Assembly: GCF_000226315.1 (NCBI RefSeq)
Contig: NC_016026.1
Coordinates: 558,001-622,000 of the forward strand
Reading direction: 5' to 3'
DNA length: 64,000 bases
Origin: Micavibrio aeruginosavorus ARL-13
Lineage (GTDB): Bacteria; Pseudomonadota; Alphaproteobacteria; Micavibrionales; Micavibrionaceae
How positions within the stretch are numbered: the stretch's first letter is position 1; every line of letters begins with the position of its first letter. Position numbers and translations under genes: made by a program. Shown here piece after piece: positions 3,582 to 43,733 of this stretch. The notes below the pieces were generated by a model. That model did not search any database and was not told the DNA's origin. It was given only the letters and a program-made list of their open reading frames with translations.

Positions 3582-3631
3582 AGGATGGTGCGCAATACAG
3601 GGATTGAACCTGTGACCCCTACGATGTCAAC
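3582..3631. other. attL: left attachment-site repeat (tRNA-Val 3' half remnant)
   Basis: These 50 bases are identical to 43684-43733, covering the anticodon loop through the 3' CCA of tRNA-Val(GAC) plus a few flanking bases. Identity stops abruptly on both sides. Only a tRNA fragment remains here, while the intact gene is at the right end. Confidence 0.93.
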
Positions 3632-32035: not shown

Positions 32036-32671
32036 ATGGATTTTCAGGGTCTTATACCCGCAGCGCGCGCCCTTGTCGGATGGTCCCAAGCGGATCTGGC
32101 CAGTCGTGTTGGCATGACGCAGGCATCGATCGCCGGCATCGAAAAGGGGCGGGGCGATCCGCACAAATCATCGCTGGAAAAAATACGCGCGGCCTTTGAT
32201 CGGGTTGGTGTCGAGTTCCTGCCCAGTGGCGTTCAACTGCGCAGAACCCCGGTGTTTTTTATCGAGGGGGATACCTGGTACACCAGCCTTCTTGACGATG
32301 TTTCCGCCACCCTGCCAGATGGGGGCGAGGTGCTTATTGAGAATGTGGATGACCGCAAATCATCCCCACGGGTTATTGATCATCTGCGCCAGATGCGCCG
32401 CGCTGGTATTACATTCCGGATGACCGCAATGGAGGGCAATACGTACCTTTCCGCACCCGTGAGCTGGTACCGCTTTATTCCGGCCCAATACTTCAAAAAC
32501 TGGATTGTAATGGTGTACGGCGACAAGGTTGCATATTCCGTTGCCGATGAAACCGGGTGCATGGTTATTACCGATGCGAACCTGGCTGACGCCATGCGCA
32601 ACCGCTTTGACATGCTGTGGAACATGTTCCCGGAGCTGAAGATCGAAAGCACCGCGGCGGAGCGTATTTGA
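32036..32671 (+). CDS. XRE-family regulator with PLD-like C-terminal domain, coupled to the cyclodipeptide synthase
   Basis: 211 residues. N-terminal XRE HTH at residues 6-45 (IPAARALVGWSQADLASRVG, TQASIAGIEKG). The C-terminal ~140 residues (VLIENVDDRKSSPRV, LRQMRRAGITFRMTAMEGN, NWIVMVYGDKVAYSV) resemble the effector-binding half of TrmB-like or XRE regulators with a PLD-type fold. The stop overlaps the next ATG (TGATG), so synthesis of the two proteins is coupled. Good ribosome binding site (GGGGT) before ATG 32036. Confidence 0.78.
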   Translation: MDFQGLIPAARALVGWSQADLASRVGMTQASIAGIEKGRGDPHKSSLEKIRAAFDRVGVEFLPSGVQLRRTPVFFIEGDTWYTSLLDDVSATLPDGGEVLIENVDDRKSSPRVIDHLRQMRRAGITFRMTAMEGNTYLSAPVSWYRFIPAQYFKNWIVMVYGDKVAYSVADETGCMVITDANLADAMRNRFDMLWNMFPELKIESTAAERI

Positions 32672-33282
32672 TGAATTACAAGGTCAAAATCCTCGGCCCG
32701 AATGCGACACACAGCCACCCGGTAGGGCGGTTGGATATCAGTGTTGGTCAACCATACCACGAAGGCGAAAAGCTGGCTGCCACCATTCAATGGGCGCATG
32801 CGCGCTTTGGTCACGTCATTGTGTCGGTGGCGGACACCCTGCAACGGTTCAACATGATGGCTGATGGGGTGGAGCAGGGCGAGGCATGGCAGAAATCATA
32901 CGATGCCGGTACCGAATGGATTGGCCGCAACGCGAACCTGTTGAAGGGCTGCACCGTGATTCGTTGGGACGAGCGTGTTCGTCATCCATTGTTCCAGCAA
33001 TTCATGATGCGCACCCTTGATCTGATCAGGGATGACGCGGATCTAATGGGCCGGATGCATGCCGCGGCCAACCAATATGCAGACCGGCGAGGTGTGCATC
33101 ACGCCGCCCCGCGCATGGGCTATCTGATCGAGGAAATGGCTGTATTCGATATGCTTTTCCGCCTTGAACCGGCGGCGGACGTGTACCCGGGCAGCATCCT
33201 GCCATTCTGGTCACACCCGGCCTATGGCGACCGTGCTGCGTTTACACGGATTGATTTCGTGCGTCGAGTCGCGATTTCATAA
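32671..33282 (+). CDS. tRNA-dependent cyclodipeptide synthase, XYP type
   Basis: 203 residues. Catalytic pattern of CDPSs is present: Ser24 in ISVGQPYHEGEKL (equivalent to the acyl-accepting serine), Asp55 in VADTLQRFN, Tyr151 and Glu155 four residues apart in GYLIEE, and Tyr172-Pro173 in VYPGS, the YP signature of the XYP subfamily. Known activity: takes aminoacyl-tRNAs and makes a cyclic dipeptide without a ribosome. The ATG overlaps the regulator stop. The substrate pocket is not predictable from sequence alone, so the product is unknown. Confidence 0.85.
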   Translation: MNYKVKILGPNATHSHPVGRLDISVGQPYHEGEKLAATIQWAHARFGHVIVSVADTLQRFNMMADGVEQGEAWQKSYDAGTEWIGRNANLLKGCTVIRWDERVRHPLFQQFMMRTLDLIRDDADLMGRMHAAANQYADRRGVHHAAPRMGYLIEEMAVFDMLFRLEPAADVYPGSILPFWSHPAYGDRAAFTRIDFVRRVAIS

Positions 33283-37527: not shown

Positions 37528-38781
37528 ATGAAAATCCTTAATTTAAAAGCAGAGAATATCAAGAAACTGGTGGCCGTGGACATTACGCCCAATGGGGACA
37601 CCGTGGTCATCAGCGGAAAGAACGGGGCCGGGAAATCCAGTGTCTTGGATTCGATCTATTGGGCTCTGGCCGGTTCAAAGCACATCGATGCCATGCCGAT
37701 CCGGCAGGGTGAAGAGAAGGGATCGATCCGCCTTGATCTTGGAAAATATGTAGTTGAGCGTCGCTTCACAGAGAAAAGTAGCTATTTGACGGTTACGGCA
37801 AAGGATGGTGCCCGGTACCCAAGCCCGCAGGATCTGCTGAATGAAATGACGGCGTCAATCACGTTCGACCCGCTGGAATTTTCCCGCCTTAAACCGCAGG
37901 AGCAGTACGATGCATTGCGCGGTTTAGTCAAAATTGATGCCGATATCGAAGCGTTGGATGCACAAAACGAGAAAGATTTTGACAATCGGACAGATGTAAA
38001 CCGGCAGATCAAGGCCCTTGATGCGCAGATCGAAGGGATCAAGGCAAAAATCCCAGACGGGACGCCGGACGAGCCGATTGATGTAATGGATCTGAGCAAT
38101 AAAATTAACGGCGAGAAGGACAAAATCCGTACGCACGGCAATTATTGCGAACGTATTGCAAACGCTGACAAGGCGATTGCCGACACCGAAAGCGAGATTG
38201 AAGCATTAAGCAAAAAATTGGATGGGTACCGGAAGGCGCGGTTGGACATTGCATCCGCAAAATCTGAGATCACGCTTGTGGATGCCGCGGTTGTTCAGGA
38301 TTGGCAGGATCGTCTTGAGAAATCACAGGAAACCAATCAGGCCGTATCCCTGAAAGCGGACATGCTCGAAAAGCGGAGTACGCTGGATGATCTGATCAAA
38401 AAATCAGAGGGCCTGACGAAAGCCATTAAAGACCGGGAGTTGGAAAAGGCTCAAGCCATTGCCGATGCGGAAATGCCAATCCCGGGCCTGACGTTGGCCA
38501 ACGGTGTGGTCTTTTATGAAGGTGTCCCGTTTAGCCAGGCATCCAGCGCCCAGCAACTGCGCGTATCTACCGCCATCGCCATGGCAATGAATCCAGAACT
38601 GCGCGTGATCCGTATCAAAGACGGTTCCCTGCTGGATCGGGAGGGCATGGACATGATCAAGTCCATGGCCAAGGACAAGGATTTCCAAATCTGGATTGAG
38701 CGTGTTGCGGATGATGACCCGGTGGCCATCGTTATTGAAGACGGTCAGGTAAAGCAAAGCGAGATGTCAGAGGCCGCATAA
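37528..38781 (+). CDS. RecF/SMC-like AAA ATPase
   Basis: 417 residues. Walker A SGKNGAGKSSVLDSIYWAL near residue 30, a long coiled-coil centre (about residues 140-310), and the C-terminal half-site with SSAQQLRVSTAIAMAMNPEL and RIKDGSLLDREG. Typical of phage RecF/SbcC-like ATPases that accompany exonuclease and Sak4. AGAGG precedes the ATG. Confidence 0.82.
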   Translation: MKILNLKAENIKKLVAVDITPNGDTVVISGKNGAGKSSVLDSIYWALAGSKHIDAMPIRQGEEKGSIRLDLGKYVVERRFTEKSSYLTVTAKDGARYPSPQDLLNEMTASITFDPLEFSRLKPQEQYDALRGLVKIDADIEALDAQNEKDFDNRTDVNRQIKALDAQIEGIKAKIPDGTPDEPIDVMDLSNKINGEKDKIRTHGNYCERIANADKAIADTESEIEALSKKLDGYRKARLDIASAKSEITLVDAAVVQDWQDRLEKSQETNQAVSLKADMLEKRSTLDDLIKKSEGLTKAIKDRELEKAQAIADAEMPIPGLTLANGVVFYEGVPFSQASSAQQLRVSTAIAMAMNPELRVIRIKDGSLLDREGMDMIKSMAKDKDFQIWIERVADDDPVAIVIEDGQVKQSEMSEAA

Positions 38782-38791
38782 GAATACCAGT

Positions 38792-38934
38792 CCGCCGATA
38801 ATGTCTTCATCGGCGGCGGGCTCGGTACCGGGCGGTGGTGTCAAAAACACCCCAGTGTCAGTGGGGGATACCCCGCCCGGATCAGCCCCTCGATGTGTGC
38901 CGCTGGATTGTCGGAAACCTCCGGCGGCACACAT
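38792..38934 (+). ncRNA. Structured RNA region with three adjacent hairpin domains
   Basis: No gene between 38782 and 39044. CCGCCGAT (38792-38799) pairs with ATCGGCGG (38809-38816). CCGGGCGG (38828-38835) pairs with CCGCCCGG (38873-38880) around two inner hairpins (GGTGT/ACACC; CCCC/GGGG). ATGTGTGCCGC (38893-38903) pairs perfectly with GCGGCACACAT (38924-38934), ending exactly where the tRNA-like element begins. Co-transcribed with the recombination operon. Confidence 0.55.
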
Positions 38935-39021
38935 GGACGGGTTCATGGCCGAATGAAATAGGAGATCGGCTGATCGGCGTACGCGATCATGACGCGGGTG
39001 CAATTCCCGCCCCGTCTACCA
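38935..39021 (+). tRNA. tRNA-like element with GUA anticodon loop, encoded CCA
   Basis: Cloverleaf seen: acceptor GGACGGG/CCCGTCT with one G-U, discriminator A, CCA 39019-39021. T-arm GCGGG-TGCAATT-CCCGC. Anticodon arm GATCG-GCGTACG-CGATC with GTA at 38979-38981. D-arm GCCGA/TCGGC with a 13-base loop containing GG. Variable loop five bases. Oddities: six bases instead of two between acceptor and D-arm, C instead of U before the anticodon, G instead of pseudouridine at T-loop position 2, and class I shape although bacterial tRNA-Tyr is class II. May be a degenerate or specialised tRNA. Confidence 0.45.
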
Positions 39022-39044
39022 ACAACAGCCCAGAGGAGGGCATC

Positions 39045-39251
39045 ATGACGAACCAATGGGACACATTCAAGGCGGCTTTCGACGAAGCCACGCGGACAAT
39101 CAGGATCGCGGATAACCATGTGAATGACATGGCCGGGATGGTCCGTGGACGTTTGCGGGCATGTTCTGTGTCGCACTCAACGCTCTGCGAATTGAAGCGC
39201 GAACTGGCAGACTACAACATGCACACCGGGAAATGGAAGGAACAGCAATGA
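39045..39251 (+). CDS. Small phage protein (68 aa)
   Basis: ATG 39045 with GAGGAGGG upstream. Helical protein (MTNQWDTFKAAFDEATRTIR). The frame extends further upstream over the tRNA-like element, but only the part from this ATG is protein-like. Unknown function. Confidence 0.6.
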   Translation: MTNQWDTFKAAFDEATRTIRIADNHVNDMAGMVRGRLRACSVSHSTLCELKRELADYNMHTGKWKEQQ

Positions 39252-43683: not shown

Positions 43684-43733
43684 AGGATGGTGCGCAATAC
43701 AGGGATTGAACCTGTGACCCCTACGATGTCAAC
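43684..43733. other. attR: right attachment-site repeat
   Basis: 50 bases identical to 3582-3631. Together with flanking chromosome it rebuilds the full tRNA-Val gene, so integration does not disrupt the tRNA. Confidence 0.93.

Follow-up and report, generated by a model that had tools for sequence, protein, structure and literature searches.

The window, by which we mean the whole 64,000-nucleotide stretch analysed here, lies in a host genome that consists of a single contig of 2,481,983 bases, with a tmRNA tag that ARAGORN matches to Micavibrio aeruginosavorus, and it carries a prophage bounded by a 50-bp repeat (3582-3631 and 43684-43733). The right repeat sits within an intact tRNA-Val, and at the left att copy a 3' fragment of a tRNA remains, which scores 19.5 bits with Rfam; tRNA-dependent lysogeny (PMC10865867) was ruled out, as the 50-bp att core restores the intact host tRNA-Val. 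Within the prophage, a tRNA-like element lies in the intergenic region between a gene for a recombination ATPase and a small ORF, and is co-directional with these flanking operon genes (Table 1). The downstream ORF has the Shine-Dalgarno sequence GAGGAGG at 39033-39039; family searches gave no match for this ORF or for the protein of an overlapping ORF at 38835-39251.

Table 1. Features of the tRNA-like element and its surroundings (window coordinates)
Feature	Position	Strand	Remarks
Upstream gene, AAA/SbcC-like recombination ATPase	37528..38781	+	phrog_1499
Intergenic region around the element	38782..39044	+	263 nt, highly structured, z -6.15
Strong hairpin directly before the element's 5' end	38893..38934	+	Predicted fold
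tRNA-like element	38935..39021	+	87 nt, CCA encoded
5' acceptor strand GGACGGG	38935..38941	+	Pairs with 39011-39017
Linker TTCAT	38942..38946	+	5 nt, ordinary tRNAs having 2 nt
D-arm-like hairpin GGCCGA / 13-nt loop / TCGGCT	38947..38971	+	Predicted fold
Hairpin at anticodon-arm position, GATCG/GCGTACG/CGATC	38972..38988	+	Stem perfect, extendable by T-A
Five-base variable loop ATGAC	38989..38993	+	Sequence
T arm GCGGG/TGCAATT/CCCGC, G55	38994..39010	+	Perfect pairing
3' acceptor strand CCCGTCT, then A73 and CCA	39011..39021	+	Sequence
Downstream small ORF	39045..39251	+	Start codon 23 nt past the CCA end

Read in order, the first half of the element is GGACGGG-TTCAT-GGCCGA-ATGAAATAGGAGA-TCGGCT-GATCG-GCGTACG-CGATC and the second half is ATGAC-GCGGG-TGCAATT-CCCGC-CCCGTCT-ACCA. 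An earlier note on this DNA had described the element, and its coordinates and parts proved correct when we re-read the sequence. It had also called the acceptor/T-arm stack perfect, which is true of the T arm, whereas the acceptor stem contains one G-U among its seven base pairs (six Watson-Crick pairs and G1-U72). A73 and the encoded CCA occupy 39018-39021. The loop GCGTACG holds GTA at 38979-38981 and has G32, C33, C37, and G38; the D-like loop holds AATAGGA, which matches the A18-G19 D-loop type of phage tRNAs with G55, and the linker TTCAT could pair alternatively with ATGAA at 38953-38957. The minimum-energy fold of the element is a cloverleaf of -33.7 kcal/mol, in which a 5-nt linker precedes a D-like stem of 6 bp (GGCCGA/UCGGCU) that closes a 13-nt loop; the folding energy itself is unremarkable (z -1.41).

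We searched the 64-kb window with a descriptor made up of a 7-bp acceptor, T arm, anticodon-position hairpin, and CCA. It matched exactly the three tRNAs called by ARAGORN and the element; there were no matches in 60 shuffles of the window, and the acceptor, T arm, and CCA together gave none in 400 shuffles of the prophage. Of the canonical tRNA features, the element has the 7-bp acceptor, the T arm of 5 bp and 7 nt, and the CCA; it lacks the 2-nt linker and D domain of about 19 nt, and also U33 and a purine at position 37. A standard ARAGORN run made no call at the element, which was called only at thresholds that yielded 530 calls in the window, and then with a different parse. The element remained below the gathering score (29 bits) of the Rfam tRNA model RF00005, and when that model was relaxed to E 10 genome-wide, 45 other places were listed and the element was absent. 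Likewise, ARAGORN made no tmRNA call at the element, and the alpha_tmRNA model gave it 11.3 bits against a cut-off of 50. Searches by blastn with the element found no homologue in phages and plasmids or in 58 related genomes, and exact and degenerate patterns found none in IMG/VR and 85k genomes. A single-sequence covariance model run on 289 alphaproteobacterial genomes had only ordinary tRNAs as its best matches, and the element was absent from relatives of the neighbouring ATPase gene. As no homologue was found, there is no covariation support for the element. We concluded that it is a non-random, orphan tRNA-like element.

An inverted repeat at 38881-38946, with 27-nt arms that are 81% complementary, has a 3' arm that includes the 5' acceptor strand, so that the upstream hairpin and the cloverleaf would be mutually exclusive. 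The two structures are 3.1 kcal/mol apart, and in the minimum-energy fold of the full leader the 5' acceptor strand is sequestered in an extended upstream hairpin. About half of real host tRNAs behaved likewise in the same leader-fold test; therefore, riboswitch-like competition is not diagnostic. The anticodon arm was also considered as a repeated DNA operator and rejected, with 6 sites found vs 4 expected.

Elsewhere in the prophage, at 32036-33282, an HTH gene is translationally coupled (ATGA) to a gene resembling those for cyclodipeptide synthases (CDPSs), the substrates of which are aminoacyl-tRNAs. The CDPS-like gene scored 41.9 bits with TIGR04539, just under the cut-off, and matched PDB 5mlq with E 1.2e-15. 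The HTH-CDPS pair also occurs in other alphaproteobacteria (genomes G061 and G260), and in G061 an ARAGORN tRNA-Val lies directly outside it; no relative was found in the phage collection. A link between the CDPS and the element was rejected, since CDPS-HTH relatives in other alphaproteobacteria have no such tRNA-like element nearby.

Vibrio phage Pylo carries an RNA without annotation (L006:1429-1530) that belongs to a family with 24 phage records. Members of this tRNA-Ile-like family occur in Escherichia, Pectobacterium, Klebsiella, Vibrio, and Pseudomonas phages of several phage families, with further members at about positions 294-401 of L361-L371; some of the records are annotated as tRNA-Ile, and ARAGORN misses the family. 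In an alignment of 12 members (A2), paired cells made up 98.7% and 16 of the 26 pairs were changed on both sides, pairing and covariation values that no shuffle reached, and controls in which the alignment was slid collapsed. The D arm of the family holds an extra hairpin with a nearly invariant loop, CTTATAC, and the loop at the anticodon position, CAGATAA, has A33; these are two anticodon-like 7-nt loops. With the element the family shares the acceptor/T-arm stack and CCA, an oversized D arm, a 5-nt variable loop, an anticodon-position hairpin with a non-U33 loop, and being missed by ARAGORN; in contrast, its conserved loops (TTGCTAAT, CTTATAC, CAGATAA, and GTAA) are all absent from the element. 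A covariance model of the family, built without the element in training, gave the element 29.0 bits, with E 4e-5 over 280 kb, a further sign that it did not arise by chance; as members score 111-124 and ordinary tRNAs 14-51, we rejected the element as a member, and with it a homology to the Pylo RNA that had been suspected at first. The family is nonetheless its closest parallel in architecture, and shows that enlarged D arms and non-U33 loops do occur in tRNA-like RNAs maintained by phages.

For a wider comparison we used 517 unique ARAGORN tRNAs from 120 viral loci (L020-L139), a set biased towards the T loop TGCAATT because the loci had been fetched for containing that sequence. Once all tRNAs with the exact TGCAATT loop were excluded, G55 was still present in 66 of 470 phage tRNAs. 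Positions 18 and 55 of the phage tRNAs covary, U55 occurring with G18-G19 and G55 mostly with A18-G19; after removal of the selection loops, 57 of the 66 G55 tRNAs lacked the D-loop GG, as did 21 of the 399 T55 tRNAs, the other 378 having it (Fisher p 1.7e-45 for the 18-55 coupling). In most G55 phage tRNAs A-G replaces the GG. The AATAGGA of the element is close to AATAGTA, a common D-loop motif of the G55 type, although this support is weak, the motif being found in 4-14% of shuffled D domains. The element has in common with the G55/A18-G19 phage tRNAs the T loop TGCAATT, an A18-G19-like motif, and CCA, and differs from them at the atypical positions 32, 33, 37, and 38 and in the length from acceptor to anticodon stem. 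This stretch is 30 nt in the element vs 15-23 in the 517 phage tRNAs, the excess of 7 nt over the longest in the set being biased by ARAGORN's own limits. In the anticodon loops of the same set, C37 did not occur, and G32, G38, and C33 occurred 2, 16, and 17 times. The oddities listed in the earlier note therefore divide: the overlong linker and D domain are indeed unusual, whereas G55 is frequent and C33, with its 17 occurrences, is tolerated. What is genuinely unusual is the overlong D domain together with the anticodon loop as a whole (G32, C33, C37, and G38). The GUA anticodon that had been named is present as GTA in a 7-nt loop; as a decoding site it is weakly supported, given the absence of C37 from the set, the 30-nt stretch where the set has at most 23, and the fact that any 7-nt loop shows some triplet.

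RNase P and CCA-dependent tRNA enzymes read the acceptor/T module with CCA; as this module is intact in the element and the CCA is encoded, maturation is plausible. The explanation that we favour, tentatively and with somewhat less than even confidence, is that the element gives rise to a tRNA-derived, CCA-ended, and probably non-decoding RNA. We propose that host tRNA-maturation enzymes would excise it from the recombination-operon transcript, with a predicted RNase P cut at 38934/38935 and trimming of the 3' end back to the encoded CCA. This would yield an 87-nt tRNA mimic ending in CCA, most likely without decoding, in which the acceptor/T module, as read by tRNA enzymes, would be kept intact and the central domain would be altered, with a long linker and D arm and an anticodon-position loop without U33 or R37; it is this loop that makes decoding unlikely. 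We infer transcription, processing, and non-decoding; as to use, the guesses that we find most plausible are that the RNA might act as a decoy, drawing enzymes that bind or cut tRNAs, or might be tRNA-style punctuation, at which the operon transcript would be split shortly before the ribosome-binding site of the next gene. Should a mature RNA with a CCA end be produced, phages would have in it a tRNA mimic invisible to standard annotation. It would then join the tRNA-Ile-like family with its D-arm hairpin as evidence of phage tRNA-like RNAs with remodelled centres, and the question of whether phage tRNAs have non-decoding roles could be tested on an RNA that is small and defined.

A decaying phage tRNA gene, with D-domain insertions, loop substitutions, and no present function, is nearly as good an explanation, and we regard it as a serious possibility, if a rather doubtful one. 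Decay would suit a singleton without relatives that fails with ARAGORN and Rfam, has several defects together (C33, C37, and the long D domain), and resides in a host with a complete tRNA-Tyr of its own. Decay should, however, have hit the stems too; instead, the acceptor, T-arm, and anticodon-position pairs are all intact and the CCA is kept. Since the departures are confined to loops and the D domain, and random decay would rarely leave such clean stems, we lean to the mimic, and for this reason only.

The host tRNA-Tyr(GUA) is a normal, complete class II tRNA (G000:C1:2235860-2235942) that has in common with the element the anticodon GTA, A73, and TGGCCGA(A/G)TG; its acceptor also resembles that of the element, with a compensated 4-69 pair. 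Relative to it, the element is longer by 4 nt inserted before position 8 and has a larger D loop; the variable arm is missing, the anticodon loop differs, and the first acceptor pair is G1-U72. The earlier statement that this is not an ordinary tRNA-Tyr was thus upheld, the host tRNA-Tyr being class II and the element having a 5-nt variable loop and failing with ARAGORN and Rfam. Anticodon U35 and A73 have been reported as critical for tyrosylation, and G1-C72 is used by bacterial TyrRS (PMC9976931); of the features of bacterial tRNA-Tyr, the element has A73 and GUA and lacks the long variable arm and G1-C72. The likeness of its D domain to that of the host tRNA-Tyr was equalled by 22-28% of shuffles across all host tRNAs. 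The link to tRNA-Tyr, for which the sequence offers GUA, A73, and the start of a D arm as in class II tRNAs, is therefore not significant against the host tRNAs as a whole, and descent from the host tRNA-Tyr is only suggestive. That the element is a working tRNA which decodes with the anticodon GUA, its variable loop being short and its D arm elongated, appears improbable: GUA, the two nucleotides critical for tyrosylation, a class-II-like D-arm start (TGGCCGAATG) as in the host tRNA-Tyr, and the tolerance of C33 in some phage tRNAs would favour it, but C37 in none of 517 phage tRNAs, G1-U72 in place of the G1-C72 of bacterial TyrRS, the missing long variable arm, and a D-domain likeness that shuffles match so often all argue against it.

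Phage tRNA-Tyr evades retron-Eco7 and Septu, defences that cut tRNA-Tyr (PMC11555353, PMC13096335). Like the element, these evading tRNAs are phage-borne GUA RNAs; unlike it, they are complete tRNA-Tyr genes, and the defences cut the variable loop of tRNA-Tyr, which in the element is short. A functional non-decoding mimic of a temperate phage, which would be retained for being processed like a tRNA and would titrate or replace a defence-targeted tRNA or donate an aminoacyl group outside translation, seems to us unlikely.

The element could also be read, very improbably, as a class II tRNA-like RNA whose anticodon arm has been lost, its GCGTACG hairpin being the variable arm and its "GUA" accidental; the D arm would then be TTCAT/ATGAA with the loop GGCCGA, a part of the reading that we consider just as improbable. 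Every anticodon-loop anomaly would be explained together, TTCAT and ATGAA can pair, and TGGCCGAATG resembles class II D arms; nevertheless, the hairpin stands five bases from the T stem, the spacing of an anticodon arm, and the D-stem GGCCGA/TCGGCT is the stronger. We give least credence to a structured leader or processing element, or a tmRNA-derived piece, that is tRNA-like in its 3' half only: the leader is highly structured over all its 263 nt and the closest sequence matches to the 3' end are tmRNA ends (L005 and, by inspection, L007, L372, and L373) or an odd tRNA (L006), but the 5' acceptor strand is an exact match to its 3' partner, a result found in 0 of 400 shuffles, the T loop of the host tmRNA is not the same (GGGCAGT), and ARAGORN makes no tmRNA call. 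Descent from the host tmRNA was rejected.

In the short stretches L372 and L373, ARAGORN calls no gene. The match in the giant Caulobacter phage CcrPW (L005:1443-1858) is an unannotated permuted tmRNA with the tag VNDNDAPVMEQRLAA, and similar permuted-tmRNA-like 3' ends are present in many IMG/VR contigs with TGCAATT. The tmRNA-like 3' ends of L373 and L372 come from plasmids: one from the megaplasmid pMPPla107 of Pseudomonas amygdali, where smpB is its neighbour, the other from a plasmid of Legionella adelaidensis, where it adjoins an integrase.
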